Shown: in pieces, positions 41,707-55,145 of the stretch
Layout of the letters: every line of letters begins with the position of its first letter
How positions within the stretch are numbered: the stretch's first letter is position 1
DNA from: Methylophilaceae bacterium
GTDB lineage: Bacteria; Pseudomonadota; Gammaproteobacteria; Burkholderiales; Methylophilaceae
Assembly (NCBI GenBank): GCA_028122555.1
Contig: JAOHSH010000001.1
Location: forward strand, 28,458-92,457
Direction: 5' to 3'
Length of the DNA stretch: 64,000 nt
Program-made: the position numbers and the translations under genes
The notes under the pieces: model-generated
What the model saw: only the letters and a program-made list of their open reading frames with translations
What the model was told of the DNA's origin: nothing
Databases searched by the model: none

Positions 41707-43341
41707 TTAATGATTACTTGGTTTTTCAATACCAATCCCTGTTTGTGATCTGAAATATTGAGTTTTAAATAATTTTTTCTCAGCCATAGAAGCTTTCGAT
41801 TTATCTGTTAAAGAAAAAAACCATATCCCAAAAAATGTTACTGTCATAGAAAATAAAGCTGGGTACTTATAATGAAAAATTGCTTTATCATTATTAAATA
41901 TATCTACCCATACTACCGGTCCTAAAATTACTAAAAGTATCACAAGAATTAAACCGGCTGAACCTCCAATAACTGCTCCTCTTGTTGTAAGATTTTTCCA
42001 ATATATAGATAGGAATAATATCGGAAAATTTGTAGTTGCCGCAATGGCAAATGCTAAACCCACCATAAATGCAACATTTTGTTTTTCAAAAATTATTCCT
42101 AAAAATATAGCAAGGATACCTAAAGAAATTGTAGCGATCTTTGATATTTTCATTTCTTTTTTTTCGTCACTTTGACCTTTTAAAAAAACATTTGCATATA
42201 AATCATGAGATATTGCGGAGGCCCCTGCAAGTGTTAATCCTGAAACAACTGCTAAAATTGTAGCAAATGCTACTGCTGAAATAAAGCCAAGTAAAATATC
42301 CCCGCCAACAGCATGAGAAAGATGAATCGCTGCCATATTATTATTACCTATTAACATACCAGTATCATTTAAATATTCTGGATTATTAGAAACTAATACA
42401 ATGGCACCAAATCCAATTATAAAAGTTAAGATATAAAAATATCCGATAAATCCAGTAGCATAAACCACGGATTTTCTAGCCTCTACTGCATCTGGTACTG
42501 TAAAAAATCGCATCAAAATATGTGGAAGACCTGCCGTACCAAACATTAAAGCAAGGCCTAAAGATATTGCTGAAATTGGATCAGATATTAATCCTCCTGG
42601 CGCCATAATAGCCTCACCTTTGTCATGAGAACTAACAGCTGCAGAAAAAAACTGATCAATATTAAATTGAAATTGATGTAAAACAAAAAATGCAATTATT
42701 GTTGCGCCAAATAATAAAAGAACTGCTTTAATTATTTGTACCCAAGTTGTAGCTAACATACCCCCAAAGGTTACATAAGAAATCATTAAGGCACCAACTA
42801 TAGTGACAGCGGAATAATATGGCAAACCAAATAGAATTTCAATAAGCTTACCAGCTCCTACCATTTGTGCTATTAAATATAAAGTTACGGTAGATAATGA
42901 TCCACATGCAGCTAAAATTCTAATTGGTTTTTGCTTAAGTCTAAATGAAACCACATCTGCAAAACTGTATTTACCCAGATTTCTAAGTGGCTCTGCAATC
43001 AATAATAAAATAATAGGCCATCCAATCAAAAAACCAATTGAATAAATAAGCCCATCAAATCCAGACAAATAAACTAAGCCTGAAATTCCCAGAAAAGAAG
43101 CTGCAGACATAAAATCACCTGATATTGCCAACCCATTTTGAAGTCCAGTAATATTTCCACCTGCCGTATAAAAACCTGATACTGTTTGAGTTCTTTTTGA
43201 TGCCCAATATGTTATTAAAAGTGTGGCCCCAACAAACAAAACAAACATAATAATTGCCATATAATTTTGTTTTGGTTCAGAGGTTGAAGCGATTAATAGA
43301 GATGGAAATAAAATTCCTAATAAAAAAAATAATTTATACAT
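41707..43341 (-). CDS. actP: Cation/acetate-type sodium:solute symporter
   Basis: SSS family: [52 protein letters not shown]; paired with DUF485. Confidence 0.92.
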
Positions 43342-43621
43342 TTTTTTGTATCTGCTTTATTAGTGGTTCAATTTTTTTATTAGCCAGATAAACATATGTA
43401 AAAGTAATTAGGAATATTAATAAAATCAGAAAAAAACCAAGAAGAATACCAATTGAGATTTTAGTCCCTACTATTAGTGCCCCAAAAAATTTTGGGTTAA
43501 AGGCAATCACTCCAATAAAACTAAAATATGAACTTACTGTAATAAATATCAAAGGAAATAATATTTTTAATCTTGTTCGTATTAATTGCTCGTAAGTTTT
43601 TGTATAATCTTTGGCTTGCAT
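43334..43621 (-). CDS. DUF485 membrane protein (YjcH-like)
   Basis: Two TM segments, [10 protein letters not shown]; overlaps actP start. Confidence 0.85.
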
Positions 43622-43749: not shown

Positions 43750-44466
43750 CTAACCCTTTAACACTCTATTTATTTTCATATATGCTTTTTTAGCTATAAC
43801 TTTTCTGTCATTGGCTAGTTGAATCTTGGATAAAATAGTCAATTTAACCTCAATATCATTTAATTTGATTAGATTTTTTATTGAATCTAATAACGATAAA
43901 TCATCATAATAAGCAGGGGCTGAACAAAATTTTTGATTATGAAAATATTGAATAGCAATTGGAAGTATCTCTATCTCTTTATTAATTGCAGTTTGAAACA
44001 GATTACTTTTGAATGGAAGAAGTTTAGATCCGTCTGTTGAAGTGCTCTCTGGAAAAATACAAATACTTCCTTTATTTTCTAAGTAATCCTCTATTTCTTT
44101 AGTTGTCTCTTTAATTTTACTAATTTTTTTTCGATCAATAAAAATTGTTTCAGAAGCTTTCACGAGCCAATTAAGAATTGGCCATTCTGAAATGCTTTGT
44201 TTAGCAACAAATGTAACTGGATGAGCTGTATTAATAACAAAAATATCTAGCCAAGAAATATGATTACTTACTATCAAATAATTTTTTTTAGCTAATATTT
44301 TTTTTAAATCATGATTAACAATTAAATTAATATTAAATATTTTTAATAAGTATGAAGACCATGACTTAATTAAACTTTTTCTGGATACACGATTAATAAT
44401 CGGGAAAAAAAAGATACATATAATCCCAATAATTAAATGAATTAAAATTAAAATAATTTTCTTCAA
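43750..44466 (-). CDS. plsC: 1-acyl-sn-glycerol-3-phosphate acyltransferase
   Basis: SNHISWLDIFV (NHxxxxD), FVAKQSISEWPI, ICIFPESTSTDGSKLLPFK. Confidence 0.92.
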   Translation of the reverse strand: MKKIILILIHLIIGIICIFFFPIINRVSRKSLIKSWSSYLLKIFNINLIVNHDLKKILAKKNYLIVSNHISWLDIFVINTAHPVTFVAKQSISEWPILNWLVKASETIFIDRKKISKIKETTKEIEDYLENKGSICIFPESTSTDGSKLLPFKSNLFQTAINKEIEILPIAIQYFHNQKFCSAPAYYDDLSLLDSIKNLIKLNDIEVKLTILSKIQLANDRKVIAKKAYMKINRVLKG

Positions 44467-44468
44467 AT

Positions 44469-45635
44469 TTAATCTTTACTACTAATATCCCTTGTGTAAA
44501 CTTTATCTTTAACTTTATCAAGTTCGGGATGGTAACGATTTGCTATGATGATTTCAGATTTATTTATAAAATCATTTATTTTTTTTACAACCTTTAATCC
44601 TTCTAATTCATTTTGATTAATTTGAGGCTCATAAATTATTATATCTACGTTTTTATCTTTTAACCTTTGTATGATTCCTAATATTGCTGATTCTCTATAA
44701 TTATCAGAATTACTTTTCATAATTAAACGATAAATTCCAACGATTTTTACTTTGGTATTGATTATTTCATTTACTAGAAAGTCTTTTCTAGTTTCATTAC
44801 TATCAACAATAGCTTGCATTATATTATTAGGAATATCTTTATAATTTGCTAGTAACTGTTTTGTATCTTTTGGAAGGCAATAACCACCGTAACCAAAGGA
44901 TGGATTATTATAATAATCTCCGATTCTTGGATCTAAGCTAACCCCCTCAATTATTTGTTTTGTACTTAATTCATGTTTAGATGAGAAAGTATCTAATTCA
45001 TTAAAGAAAGTAACTCTCATTGCTAAATACATATTTGAAAAAAGCTTTATAGCTTCAGCTTCAGTAGAATTTGTATATAAAATTGGCATATCTTTTTTAA
45101 TTGCCCCTTGTATAAATAATTTTGCTAAATTCTTACCTTTATCTGAATTATTGCTAATAATAATCCTCGATGGGTAAAGACAATCATATAATGCTTGCCC
45201 CTCTCTTAAAAATTCTGGAGAAAAAATAATATGCGGAATATTGAATTTTCTTTTTAAACTTTCTGTATAGCCAACAGGAACCGTGGACTTTATTAAAATA
45301 GTTGCATTTTTATTTACCTTTAGTATTTTTTCTATTGCATCATCAATTGATTTTGTATTAAAAAAGTTTGTGCTGGGATCATAATCTGTAGGAGTTGCTA
45401 TAATAATTAGCTCTGCATCCTTATAAGCAATATTTTGATCCATCGTTGCATTAAGATCTAATTTAACTGACTCCAAATATTCAGAGATATAAGGGTCTTG
45501 AATTGGCGATTTTCTTTGGTTTATCAAGTCAACTTTATCCGAAATAATATCCATTAGATTAACTTTATTATTTTGTGCAAGCAAGATAGCGTTTGCTAAA
45601 CCAACGTAGCCAATTCCTACAACTGTTATTTTCAA
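44469..45635 (-). CDS. ugd: UDP-glucose 6-dehydrogenase
   Basis: VVGIGYVGLANAILLAQ, KSTVPVGYTE, FSPEFLREGQAL, SFGYGGYCLPKDTKQL. Confidence 0.93.
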   Translation of the reverse strand: MKITVVGIGYVGLANAILLAQNNKVNLMDIISDKVDLINQRKSPIQDPYISEYLESVKLDLNATMDQNIAYKDAELIIIATPTDYDPSTNFFNTKSIDDAIEKILKVNKNATILIKSTVPVGYTESLKRKFNIPHIIFSPEFLREGQALYDCLYPSRIIISNNSDKGKNLAKLFIQGAIKKDMPILYTNSTEAEAIKLFSNMYLAMRVTFFNELDTFSSKHELSTKQIIEGVSLDPRIGDYYNNPSFGYGGYCLPKDTKQLLANYKDIPNNIMQAIVDSNETRKDFLVNEIINTKVKIVGIYRLIMKSNSDNYRESAILGIIQRLKDKNVDIIIYEPQINQNELEGLKVVKKINDFINKSEIIIANRYHPELDKVKDKVYTRDISSKD

Positions 45636-45699: not shown

Positions 45700-47448
45700 T
45701 TATTCACTGAGCTGGTAGACACTTATATAATCTCCTTGCTTGTAACCCATAATTTTATTTCCACCAGCCACAACTCCAATATATTGTTTACCATCAATCG
45801 TATAACTAATTGGGGGAGCATTTACACCTGCATCTATATTTGTTTGCCAAAGTAACTCCCCATTGACTGCATTAAAAGCATTAAAAGCGCCACTCCCTTC
45901 CCCTAAGAAAACTAGGTTTCCTTTTGTAGCAAGTGAACCTCCTAAAAGGGGTTGTTGTGTTGTATGCTGCCATACAATTTTACCAGTTGATACATTTATA
46001 GCAGATAACACCCCCCATTGTGCTTCATCAGCAGGTTCAGAACTAGTATATTTTACAATTTTATCCCCAGATTTTTTCTCGTTAAGAGTGTATTTAATTG
46101 GTGCGTGAATACCAGAAACATATACTAAATGATGATCTAAATTCATACTTACTGGTGACCAATTTGATCCCCCAAGAATTCCTGGATAAATTATAGTCCC
46201 CTCAAAAGTTGCTTTAGAAAATAAATTGCTTTGAGGAACAAATGCTTCAGACTTAAGTATTAGTTCGCCGTTATTTCTGTTATGTATATAAAACCATCCA
46301 GTTTTTCCAGCCTGTCCAACTGCAGGGATTACTTTTCCATTAACAATAGTGTCAAATATTAAAGGTGGGCTTGCAACATCATATCCCCATAAATCATGTG
46401 GGACTTGTTGATAAAACCATTTTAATTTTCCTGTATCAGCATCTAAAGCGACTAAGGAAACAGTATAAAGATTATCTCCGGGTCGACTTTCTGCACTCAT
46501 TTGTGGTGAAGGATTACCAGTTCCAAAAAAAAGTGTATTTGTAACTTCATCAATAGCAGGCGAAGTCCATGCTGAACCTCCACCGAATTTAGCAGAGTCA
46601 GGATACTTATCCAATGCTTCTTTTTCAAGATAGGTATCACGATTTAATACTTCACCATCAGCGGTATAATTTGTAAAGTTACCTTCCCAACCCTTTTCAG
46701 GAATCGTATCGAATTGCCATATTTGTCTTCCTGAATGAATGTCGTAGGCTGCTAAGAATCCAGGCCTTCCAAATCTACCAGCAACCCCAACTACAGAGCC
46801 TAATCCTGGATCATTATCTTGTTCTTCAATATGAAGGCCATAGCCAACTCCTGTTATTCCAATAATTACTTTATTTTTATAAATAACAGGGGCCATAGAA
46901 ATACCCACACCCGTTCCGCCACTTATAATTTTATCTCGATTTGGATCTAGTTCATTTAGTGAGCTTAAAGATTCGGTTTCCACTAGGTTTTCTACTATAT
47001 TTATATCCCAAATTTTTTCACCAGTTTTAATGTCAAGTGAAATTAGTCTTGCATCAATAGTTCCAAAAAAAACTTTATCCTCGTGAATTGCTACTCCTCT
47101 GTTTGTTGGCCCACAACATATTTTCCAATTTGGATTTCTATCATGTTCATAACGCCACAATTCTTTACCTGTTTTCCCATCTAGAGCAATTACGTGATTG
47201 AAAGGTAAAGATACATACATAATTCCTTTATGAATAATAGGCGTAGCTTGAAATGTTGCATTGATTCCAGTTTGATATTGCCAAGCTAATTCTAAATTAT
47301 TAACATTCTTAGTATTAATTTGGTCTGATTTTGAAAATCGTTGATTGGTTAAATCTTTTCCATAAGAGCTCCAGTCTTCGTTCTGTTTCTGACACGCAGA
47401 AAGAAAAAATAAGCTTAAAAAAATGGCTAATATATTTTTCATAGACAT
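45700..47448 (-). CDS. PQQ-type beta-propeller dehydrogenase-like lipoprotein
   Basis: Lipobox FFLSAC; W-motif-like repeats (LDGKTGKELWRYE, LDIKTGEKIWDI, LDADTGKLKWFYQ); vicinal CC in WKICCGPTNRG; GKTGWFYIHNRNNGELI. Confidence 0.9.
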   Translation of the reverse strand: MSMKNILAIFLSLFFLSACQKQNEDWSSYGKDLTNQRFSKSDQINTKNVNNLELAWQYQTGINATFQATPIIHKGIMYVSLPFNHVIALDGKTGKELWRYEHDRNPNWKICCGPTNRGVAIHEDKVFFGTIDARLISLDIKTGEKIWDINIVENLVETESLSSLNELDPNRDKIISGGTGVGISMAPVIYKNKVIIGITGVGYGLHIEEQDNDPGLGSVVGVAGRFGRPGFLAAYDIHSGRQIWQFDTIPEKGWEGNFTNYTADGEVLNRDTYLEKEALDKYPDSAKFGGGSAWTSPAIDEVTNTLFFGTGNPSPQMSAESRPGDNLYTVSLVALDADTGKLKWFYQQVPHDLWGYDVASPPLIFDTIVNGKVIPAVGQAGKTGWFYIHNRNNGELILKSEAFVPQSNLFSKATFEGTIIYPGILGGSNWSPVSMNLDHHLVYVSGIHAPIKYTLNEKKSGDKIVKYTSSEPADEAQWGVLSAINVSTGKIVWQHTTQQPLLGGSLATKGNLVFLGEGSGAFNAFNAVNGELLWQTNIDAGVNAPPISYTIDGKQYIGVVAGGNKIMGYKQGDYISVYQLSE

Positions 47449-48288
47449 CTAAGGAAAAATTTGGATTGGAATACTTAGCACTTTCATTTTATCAGCAATA
47501 ATCTCCAATTCAGATTTTGTAAGTCTTGTTAACTTAGATTCATTAATTTGTTCAGATGGTCTAGCTAAACTATATAGATGAATTCCCTTAACTTTACTTC
47601 TATAAGGCATTAAAAAATTAATATAGATTTCTATCGATTCTAAACTAGGAAGCTCTTTATTTATTTTAAATAAACATGTTTGTATAAACGTTGGGCTATT
47701 ACTGATAGCTGCTTCAAGATTTCTTTTAACGCTTAATGTCGATAAATTAACTTGGTTAATTTTTTTTACGCCATCTTTATTCATTTGGTCTATTTTAAAC
47801 CAAACCTCACGATTAATAGTGTCCAATAAAGATAAAGCGTTTTGTGTTTCAATATTGGACATATAACTACCATTTGTAATTAATCTTATTATTATTTTAT
47901 TGAGATTATATTTTTTAATTTTCTTAACTAAAATTTTAATTACTTCTTTAAATTGCTCAGATGCTGTTGGCTCTCCGTTCCCAGAAAAAGATATATCTTT
48001 AAATTCTGTTTTACTTTTAGTATATTGATTCAAGAAAGATTTATTAACTATTTGATCAAGCCAATAATCAAGCTCCCTCTCTAATTCATCCAAATCTATT
48101 GGTACTGGCTTTCCTCTTACTAAATTTGGAACTTCGCAATAAATACACTGCCAGTTACAAGCATTGTTCGTATTTAAATTAATTCCTAAAGATAATCCGC
48201 CTGCTCGCCTTGACACAACAGGGTATATATATTTTCCTTTAAAGATATTTCGGTCGTGGTTTGTTATAGTTAAAATTTCGATAGGCAT
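47449..48288 (-). CDS. Radical SAM protein
   Basis: NNACNWQCIYCEVP (CxxxCxxC), FSGNGEPTAS; stop directly abuts the PQQ-propeller gene start. Confidence 0.9.
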   Translation of the reverse strand: MPIEILTITNHDRNIFKGKYIYPVVSRRAGGLSLGINLNTNNACNWQCIYCEVPNLVRGKPVPIDLDELERELDYWLDQIVNKSFLNQYTKSKTEFKDISFSGNGEPTASEQFKEVIKILVKKIKKYNLNKIIIRLITNGSYMSNIETQNALSLLDTINREVWFKIDQMNKDGVKKINQVNLSTLSVKRNLEAAISNSPTFIQTCLFKINKELPSLESIEIYINFLMPYRSKVKGIHLYSLARPSEQINESKLTRLTKSELEIIADKMKVLSIPIQIFP

Positions 48289-48328
48289 GATGGCTTATTA
48301 TTACAATTATCGTTACATAATACTAGAT

Positions 48329-48931
48329 TTACTTACTAAACCACATTCTTCTTAATGTTCCATCCTTATCTATAATTGAATGTTTTAAAGCTCCAATGAT
48401 ATGAAAAATTAAAATAGATAAAAGCAATAATCCAAAAATTTGATGGAATTCATAAAATAATTTTCTTAAACCAGAATCGTCAATACCACCAATAACCTCG
48501 ATACCAAACCATTTAATACCATATTTGCTTCCAATAGACATAATTATTCCAGATAGGGGAATTAAAACCATTAATAAATAAAGTCCATAATGCACAATAT
48601 TAGCTAATCTTTTTTCCCATGATTTCATTGAGTCAAGTAAAGCAGGTGGTCGATTATTTAAACGCCAAATTATTCTAAAAATTATTAGAGCAAATATTGT
48701 GAGACCAATAGATTTATGAAGATTAAAATAAAAAGCTCTTGGGGAGACCTCTTTAGCAAGCTCCCATGTATAAATACCTAAGTTAAATAAATCATAACTA
48801 GATGATTTATCACCTTCCTGAGGTAAAGCTTCCATAAACCAACCAAGATAAAACATGAAAAAAATACATATGGCAATTAACCAATGAAGAATAATTGCAA
48901 CTTTAGTATATTTTTTAGTCAGACTAATCAT
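48329..48931 (-). CDS. Cytochrome b561 family protein
   Basis: AIILHWLIAICIFFMFYLGWFM, NLHKSIGLTIFALIIFRIIWRL, FYEFHQIFGLLLLSILIFHIIGALKH. Confidence 0.93.
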   Translation of the reverse strand: MISLTKKYTKVAIILHWLIAICIFFMFYLGWFMEALPQEGDKSSSYDLFNLGIYTWELAKEVSPRAFYFNLHKSIGLTIFALIIFRIIWRLNNRPPALLDSMKSWEKRLANIVHYGLYLLMVLIPLSGIIMSIGSKYGIKWFGIEVIGGIDDSGLRKLFYEFHQIFGLLLLSILIFHIIGALKHSIIDKDGTLRRMWFSK

Positions 48932-48985
48932 AATTAAATTAGGGTAAAATAAAATTTATATAATCATAGCCTCACTTTCAAGAAA

Positions 48986-49918
48986 ATGAAAAAAAAATTT
49001 ATATTTTGTATGTTCTTTTTAATTTTTGCAGTACAAAAAAATGTTCTAGCAAGTTCCTCTCATGTAGACATTGTTGAAGTAGCGCCAGGAATATTTGTTC
49101 ATCAAGGGAAACATTTTGATGTTGATGAAACCTATCAAGGTGATATTGGTAATATTGGTTTCATTATTGGTAAAAATAGTGTTGCAGTTATTGATACTGG
49201 AGGAACTTTAGCGATAGGTAAATCACTTAAAGCAAGTATTCGAGAAAAGACATCCTTACCAATCAAATATGTAATTAATACACATGTTCATCTTGATCAT
49301 ATATATGGAAATGCCGCATTTAAGGATAAAAATACCAAATTCATAGGCCACAACAAACTTCCAGAAGCCATGCAATTTAGAAAAGAATTTTATGAAGAAT
49401 TAAATCTTAAATATTTAAATATCCCAGTTGAGAAAACCATCCAAATTCCACCTTCAATTTTAATCAAGGCTAATAAAAGTATGATTTTAGATTTAGGTGA
49501 AAGAGAAATAAAAATAAGTGCCTACTCCACTGCTCATACAAATAATGATATTACTATTGAGGACTTATCAACTGGAACCTTTTGGGCTGGTGATTTATTA
49601 TTTATTGAACGAACTCCGGTAGTTGACGGAGATATAAATGGCTTTATTGATATTCTGGACCAATTTATGTCACTAAATATTAAACTTGTTATCCCGGGAC
49701 ATGGAACTCCAACAAAGAACTGGAAAGCAGCTTTTAAGAAACATAAAAATTATTTTGTAACTTTGAGGGATGGAATAAGGCAAGCAATTGAAGATGATCT
49801 GGGCCTTCAAGAAGCTATAGAAACTATAGCTCAGTCCGAAGCAGAGAAGTGGGAATTATTTGATGTTCAAAATGCTAGAAATATAAATCAAATATACCCA
49901 CAACTAGAATGGGAATAA
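48986..49918 (+). CDS. MBL-fold hydrolase, quinoprotein relay system zinc metallohydrolase-like
   Basis: Signal peptide; NTHVHLDHIYGN (HxHxDH), YSTAHTNNDITI, GDLLFIERTPVVDGDINGFI, IPGHGTP. Confidence 0.88.
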   Translation: MKKKFIFCMFFLIFAVQKNVLASSSHVDIVEVAPGIFVHQGKHFDVDETYQGDIGNIGFIIGKNSVAVIDTGGTLAIGKSLKASIREKTSLPIKYVINTHVHLDHIYGNAAFKDKNTKFIGHNKLPEAMQFRKEFYEELNLKYLNIPVEKTIQIPPSILIKANKSMILDLGEREIKISAYSTAHTNNDITIEDLSTGTFWAGDLLFIERTPVVDGDINGFIDILDQFMSLNIKLVIPGHGTPTKNWKAAFKKHKNYFVTLRDGIRQAIEDDLGLQEAIETIAQSEAEKWELFDVQNARNINQIYPQLEWE

Positions 49919-49945
49919 AATAAAGCCTTTAAAATAGCTTTATTT
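49918..49945. terminator. Bidirectional terminator between convergent genes
   Basis: AAATAAAGC-CTTTAAAATA-GCTTTATTTTTT: 9-bp perfect stem with a T-tract (+) and an A-rich 5' flank (U-rich on minus); overlaps the ends of both flanking CDS. Confidence 0.75.
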
Positions 49946-50341
49946 TTTCAAATTATCAATACTATATCCAGTAGCGGGATGAACTCCCATATAAAAAAGA
50001 CCCCCTGTTATGGTCAAGTATTGAAGAGCCATTAATAGAAGATGGGGTTGACCGCTGAATGCATTCAGTAAATATACAATTGACCAAATAAATGAGTAAG
50101 CAGCTAAGATATAAGCTGTAACTTTTATTTTGTACCCAATAATTAAAGTAAACCCTGCAACTAATTGGATTAAAATACTTAATGGAGCAAAAATACCTGG
50201 TAAGCCTCTAGCTCCTAACATATCTTGATAATTACCATAGCCACTTGGGGTACTAACTATATTACTCAAAATAAATAAAACTGAGATAAAAAATATCAAT
50301 GATAATAGAACCCTCGCAATAGGATCAAAAAATTTTTTCAT
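49940..50341 (-). CDS. DoxX family membrane protein
   Basis: Four TM segments; ARVLLSLIFFISVLFILSN, GFTLIIGYKIKVTAYILA. Confidence 0.83.
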   Translation of the reverse strand: MKKFFDPIARVLLSLIFFISVLFILSNIVSTPSGYGNYQDMLGARGLPGIFAPLSILIQLVAGFTLIIGYKIKVTAYILAAYSFIWSIVYLLNAFSGQPHLLLMALQYLTITGGLFYMGVHPATGYSIDNLKK

Positions 50342-54837: not shown

Positions 54838-54872
54838 TTAGAGCTCCTATTTGAACGTAAGGAGCATATTAA

Positions 54873-54962
54873 AATGCTTTCCCTACGGCGGTATTAACCA
54901 CATCAGGTTCGAAGGGTATTTCTCACTATTATTTTTTTTCTTTAATAGACCCCTAGCAGTAG
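54873..54962 (-). promoter_or_regulatory. TPP riboswitch (THI element) upstream of thiC
   Basis: Minus-strand ACTGCTAGGGGTC...TGAGAAATACCCTTCGAACCTGATGTGGTTAATACCGCCGTAGGGAAGC matches the THI-box core. Confidence 0.95.
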
Positions 54963-55145
54963 CTTTATAGATTATTCGAATATGTACAAATGTGCAAGCA
55001 TAGATGTATCTATATTAAATAAATATTAATAATTAGTTTGCCCCTCTAATATATAATTAAATTATGAAGACGAACCTTATTAATAATATTAACTCCAACA
55101 AACTTCAAAAAAAATCTTTATTAAATAAATATATATTTAATTTCA

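Follow-up and report, generated by a model that had tools for sequence, protein, structure and literature searches.

The four genes analysed here lie in a stretch of 64,000 nucleotides (the window) from contig JAOHSH010000001.1 of a Methylophilaceae bacterium, and encode a lipoprotein of the pyrroloquinoline quinone (PQQ) enzyme family, a radical S-adenosylmethionine (rSAM) protein, a cytochrome b561 and a secreted hydrolase of the metallo-beta-lactamase (MBL) type. Comparison with related genomes suggests that these genes probably make up two separate units, the first of which is associated with the XoxF system. This first unit would consist of b561 and the SoxH-like MBL which, together with a SoxYZ-like carrier encoded elsewhere, would serve as an accessory module of XoxF methanol dehydrogenase. 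The second unit would consist of the rSAM protein and the PQQ-like lipoprotein within the DUF485-ActP block of marine OM43 genomes. The b561/MBL pair is ancient and the rSAM/PQQ-like unit is younger, and the two are neighbours since, in the pelagic lineage, the block sits next to the b561/MBL/DoxX segment.

The genome holding the window (857 kb, 69% complete) is that of a tiny marine, methanol-using bacterium of OM43-type Methylophilaceae, with the window located in its contig C1. Among named organisms, its relatives are OM43-clade Methylophilaceae and Ca. Methylopumilus. The positions of the four genes were compared across 37 Methylophilaceae genomes, for which the labels 'marine' and 'freshwater-type' are inferred from identity to named records. 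The region is arranged as follows.

45700..47448, minus strand: eight-bladed propeller lipoprotein of the PQQ family, active site remodelled (582 aa; PF01011, 5e-96)
47449..48288, minus strand: minimal rSAM protein (279 aa; PF04055, 9e-8)
48329..48931, minus strand: prokaryotic cytochrome b561, candidate membrane haem protein (200 aa; PF01292, 9.8e-35)
48932..48985: b561-MBL intergenic region (54 bp; divergent order kept through the family)
48986..49918, plus strand: secreted SoxH-like zinc metallohydrolase, MBL (310 aa; PF00753, 4e-20; TIGR04559)

An earlier note on this DNA, made from the sequence alone, had delineated the same four open reading frames and identified the genes correctly, including the assignment of the MBL protein to the 'quinoprotein relay' class. 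As that note had also stated, the rSAM stop codon abuts the ATG of the PQQ-like gene; the gap between the rSAM and b561 genes is 40 bp rather than the 41 bp it had given.

The b561/metallohydrolase pair

The b561 and MBL genes are adjacent on opposite strands, with a gap of 54-312 bp, in 35/35 genomes that have both, and these genomes span seven genera. This adjacency exceeds chance. The MBL protein scores 369.5 bits against TIGR04559 (quinoprotein relay system zinc metallohydrolase 2), for which the cut-off is 280, and carries a Sec-type signal and the motif HVHLDH. Its metal ligands, namely H100, H102, D104 and H105 of the HxHxDH motif, the second His H184 and the bridging Asp D203, are conserved among 37 sequences, with one exception per column permitted. 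The b561 protein scores 120.4 against a gathering score of 30.1 for PF01292, and its histidines H16, H72, H114, H163, H177 and H184 are conserved among 24 sequences. Promoter-like matches in the intergenic region were no commoner than in shuffled sequences. A literature search on b561 with XoxF or metallo-beta-lactamase returned nothing relevant, and no description of a constant cytochrome b561 partner was found.

A SoxYZ-like carrier (TIGR04557) is present above the cut-off in most family genomes. The carrier gene adjoins b561 in genomes G032, G034 and G035 and is located ~13 kb away in G031. The carrier arm is GGCGG in sediment-type relatives (three genera) and GGCSG in pelagic ones (three genomes).

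The MBL DNA (window 49000-50000) is ~85-96% identical to that of two relatives (loci L036 and L038) across ~1 kb, with flanks that are mostly 71-86% identical. Locus L037 displays no such peak. The peak against L036 and L038 suggests interspecies recombination.

Association with the xox genes

Of the six non-pelagic genera, five have the MBL/b561 pair after the xoxF/J/G genes, usually with the SoxYZ-like carrier. Specifically, in genomes G031-G035 (loci L093, L094, L095, L103 and L133) the pair follows a string composed of xoxF, xoxJ-like, cytochrome c, NDH-2-like, LplT-like, PhoH-like, Bcp-like and TonB-like genes. The stretches read for L103 and L133 start at the cytochrome c genes, with xoxF outside them, and L133 (G033) shows no Bcp-like gene. 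The window's genome keeps this string at its own xoxF (L059), where moeA/mobB-like genes stand directly after the TonB-like gene. At L103 the space between the TonB-like and moeA/mobB-like genes is occupied first by the pair, then by the carrier and a TonB-dependent-receptor-like gene.

The pair has a different place in G036 and the pelagic lineage, next to hemE and/or DoxX, mutY, uppP and thiC (L096-L099 and L110), and the DoxX gene is the constant neighbour of MBL at these five loci. A genomic island (tycheposon) with hem, thi and cytochrome b561 genes has been described for OM43/Methylopumilus (PMC10872708), and the window region appears to fit that description. The earlier note had seen neither a dedicated cytochrome c partner nor PQQ biosynthesis genes in the window. 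Both are present elsewhere in the genome, with pqqB, C, D and E on contig C40 (PqqC recognized by model; B, D and E by eye) and xoxF, an xoxJ-like gene and a one-haem cytochrome c gene on contig C3. The main text of an OM43 transcriptome paper names xoxF/J/G, and the terms b561, radical SAM and lactamase do not occur in it.

A tentative chemistry, less likely than the two-unit reading itself, can be drawn for the b561/MBL unit. The carrier cysteine would hold an adduct that arises in the periplasm as alcohols are oxidised with PQQ; the MBL protein would cleave this adduct from the carrier by hydrolysis, much as a thioesterase of the glyoxalase II type does, and b561 would send the electrons of a coupled thiol/adduct oxidation to the quinone pool. 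A more specific version, in which XoxF formaldehyde would be captured on the carrier cysteine and oxidised to a thioester, with electrons passing via b561 to quinones and MBL freeing formate, all in the periplasm, is highly improbable.

The rSAM/PQQ-like unit

The PQQ-like and rSAM genes are adjacent on one strand, 3-139 bp apart, in each of the 20 OM43-type genomes where a single contig holds both, and this adjacency likewise exceeds chance. Among the 37 family genomes it was seen in no freshwater-type or other-genus genome. The pelagic block has the order actP-DUF485-[PQQ-like]-rSAM, in which the PQQ-like gene is present in marine genomes only; freshwater-type loci L097 and L098 carry actP-DUF485-rSAM without it. 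In five freshwater-type genomes (G001, G003, G006, G007 and G015; 91-99% complete) the PQQ-like gene is absent although rSAM, b561 and MBL are all there. Across the six other genera the PQQ-like gene adjoins none of the other three, and in G008 it is 639 kb away. As a four-gene set the neighbourhood is thus not syntenic, an outcome that the earlier note had named as a refutation of its reading. The invariant parts are b561/MBL throughout and rSAM/PQQ-like within the marine clade.

The distance between the two units is variable. The rSAM and b561 genes are adjacent in many pelagic genomes, a three-gene block of ~3.8 kb lies between them in others, and in HTCC2181 the rSAM/PQQ-like and b561/MBL units are 31 kb apart. 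The three-gene block contains GH13-like, glycosyltransferase-like and HAD-like genes (L098 6311-9975; L110 7850-11560) and is perhaps for glucosylglycerate.

The PQQ-like lipoprotein begins with the signal MSMKNILAIFLSLFFLSAC, which includes an LSAC lipobox, and falls below every NCBIfam cut-off (TIGR03075, 423 versus 480; TIGR04528, 336 versus 650). An AlphaFold2 model with a predicted local distance difference test score (pLDDT) of 78 displays the eight-bladed quinoprotein fold, with PedH (6zcv) as the nearest structure at a template modelling (TM) score of 0.75. Residues of the family were aligned with those of the genome's XoxF and two other quinoproteins, using the active-site roles of methanol dehydrogenase. 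The pocket residues C111-C112, R117, W294, N312, K382 and N429 are kept, and D357 and H206 are conserved in the family. At W354-G355-Y356-D357 the catalytic Asp is replaced by Gly355, and WGYD is found in 39/40 aligned members, whereas the reference quinoproteins (three) and all five of the displayed solved enzymes read W-D at this place. The metal-ligand Asn is kept (N312). The Glu ligand is missing under either alignment of the loop concerned, a part of the alignment that is less certain because this loop carries an insertion. The Trp positions assumed to contact PQQ, close to the C-terminus, differ as well.

Two more W-G quinoprotein paralogues are located close together at L065 (G059 C21:24000-43000), one with WGYD and one with WGMD, the latter lying outside the 40-member alignment.

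Loss of the catalytic Asp and the metal-ligand Glu makes an ordinary dehydrogenase mechanism unlikely, and the protein should not oxidise alcohols through an Asp base in the usual way. Orthologues (E<1e-100) occur in 7/368 other genomes of the class. All seven are PqqC-positive, against a background of 51/368, which ties the family to PQQ. The lipoprotein probably retains PQQ binding or has some function in the PQQ system. The idea of an 'empty' quinoprotein with no relation to PQQ was also considered and is weakened by the 7/7 co-occurrence.

The rSAM protein has its CxxxCxxC motif at C44, C48 and C51, and its only conserved cysteines are 44, 48, 51 and 205. No PqqE or SPASM model was among its NCBIfam or Pfam matches, no SPASM/twitch cluster was seen and a sequence profile gave no match against the PDB. 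Its fold matches are generic to the superfamily (RlmN, Mmp10, viperin and lipoyl synthase). A role as a PqqE substitute was rejected because there is no PqqE/SPASM match and the genome has a pqqBCDE cluster elsewhere. In two other genera (G036 and G034; L104 and L108) an orthologue sits between genes interpreted as cbb3 oxidase on one side and FNR/HemN on the other, and the gene is present in several PqqC-negative genomes, which argues against a PQQ enzyme. The protein is most likely a co-transcribed neighbour of the lipoprotein and not a PQQ-maturation enzyme.

Alternative explanations

The earlier note had interpreted the four genes as a single periplasmic electron route in which the PQQ-like lipoprotein oxidises a substrate and b561 takes the electrons. 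Contiguity and tight spacing in the window and many marine relatives, confinement of the sampled PQQ-like orthologues to PqqC-positive genomes and the conserved histidines of b561 are consistent with such a route. It is nonetheless improbable, since the catalytic Asp and metal-ligand Glu are lost and the four-gene set is not kept beyond the marine clade; b561/MBL persists without the PQQ-like gene, which five freshwater-type genomes lack and six genera carry apart from the others. The lipoprotein might instead be a working PQQ enzyme whose site is unusual (D357 or H206 being, for example, substitutes) and which has its own substrate, with ActP importing the carboxylate product. The retained pocket, the conservation of these two residues, the PqqC association and the position next to DUF485-ActP in marine OM43 point in this direction. 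This is unlikely, however, as Gly occupies the base position in none of the solved enzymes displayed, the presumed PQQ-contact Trp positions are changed too and freshwater-type genomes have ActP-DUF485 with no PQQ-like gene. Finally, the arrangement could be mainly an accident of packing in a streamlined genome with a flexible island. The published tycheposon with hem, thi and cytochrome b561 genes (PMC10872708), the coming and going of the ugd gene, the acyltransferase gene and the three-gene block, and the apparently recombined MBL segment all agree with this. Such an origin is doubtful given that b561 and MBL are found side by side in seven genera and at two separate places on the chromosome, and that rSAM and PQQ-like genes are still adjacent in HTCC2181, where the units are apart.

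Several observations weigh against two separate units and their connection to XoxF and PQQ. The rSAM gene adjoins b561 in G008 although no PQQ-like gene is there, and this adjacency, together with the ~3.8 kb spacing elsewhere, makes a link across the two units possible. The window's genome, at 69% completeness, yielded no SoxYZ-like carrier, although its nearest relatives have one. Many genes of the xox loci were assigned by eye from reading, and the hypergeometric P for PqqC co-occurrence (~7e-7) ignores the kinship of the genomes. A relative of the MBL protein with 44% identity is encoded near a gene read as soxB in PqqC-negative G060 (L100, C8:195000-210000), so the hydrolase need not be quinoprotein-specific and may act on SoxYZ-type conjugates generally.

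Neighbouring features

The genes that flank the region in the window are listed below.

41707..43341, minus strand: putative sodium:acetate symporter of the ActP type, closing the conserved block (order kept in relatives)
43334..43621, minus strand: DUF485-type small membrane protein, ActP partner (named by gene order and sequence)
43750..44466, minus strand: 1-acyl-glycerol-3-phosphate acyltransferase-like, variable neighbour (PF01553, 1.8e-27)
44469..45635, minus strand: UDP-glucose 6-dehydrogenase-like, downstream variable neighbour (TIGR03026 over the cut-off; at this place in the nearest relatives only)
49940..50341, minus strand: DoxX-family membrane protein (PF07681, 7.7e-8)

In marine and freshwater-type relatives, the DUF485 gene comes after the rSAM or rSAM/PQQ-like genes. 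An OM43 ActP is named in PMC6794327. An Rfam search gave no match in the four-gene region; a thiamine pyrophosphate (TPP) riboswitch (RF00059, 68.6 bits) is located 5' of thiC at window 54862-54964 on the minus strand. There are no tRNAs in the window.

Comparison with known systems

Proteins of the SoxYZ-like and SoxH-like types go together with PQQ alcohol dehydrogenases that have adjacent cysteines, and are widespread companions of lanthanide-dependent alcohol dehydrogenases (PMC12997753). Only hypotheses for their role are offered in that paper, namely maturation, redox control and protection of PQQ from sulfur nucleophiles, and b561 is absent from its text. The known carrier/SoxH-like system (TIGR04557/TIGR04558/TIGR04559) includes PP_2677 and PP_2678 of the Pseudomonas putida ped cluster and META1p1703-1705 of Methylobacterium extorquens (PMC12997753). 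The b561/MBL unit resembles it in that the window's MBL protein passes TIGR04559, the carrier of relatives has a GGC arm and there is a link to xoxF and PQQ dehydrogenases. It differs in the constant divergent b561 and in the location of the MBL gene, which is away from xoxF in the window's lineage and away from the carrier in relatives. The invariance of the b561 partner in Methylophilaceae points to a specific membrane redox component and renders the SoxYZ/SoxH-like role testable. This b561 belongs to the same family as the CybB-like b561 of Escherichia coli (PF01292) and shares the conserved histidines, but it is tied genetically to a SoxH-like hydrolase and scores under the E. coli-type b561 equivalog cut-off (47.9 versus 170).

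Similarity alone would class the PQQ-like lipoprotein as a PQQ dehydrogenase. In common with the methanol/ethanol dehydrogenases (TIGR03075; PedH 6zcv, ExaA 1flg and XoxF 6dam), it has an eight-bladed propeller, a vicinal Cys pair and pocket Trp, Asn and Lys residues. It departs from them in its score below the cut-off, the Asp to Gly replacement, the missing metal-ligand Glu, an extra loop with a conserved GYGLH and its lipoprotein nature. The quinoprotein fold is also shared with acido-empty-quinoprotein group A (TIGR04528), the second-best NCBIfam model at 336 bits, but the lipoprotein is far below the cut-off of 650 and, in the sample, its family occurs in no genome that lacks PqqC. With the catalytic Asp gone and an occurrence that still follows PQQ biosynthesis, this quinoprotein family may be a case in which the fold has a role other than that of a dehydrogenase, for instance in handling PQQ. 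The useful results are the b561/SoxH-like pair within the XoxF neighbourhood and the W-G-Y-D quinoprotein family.

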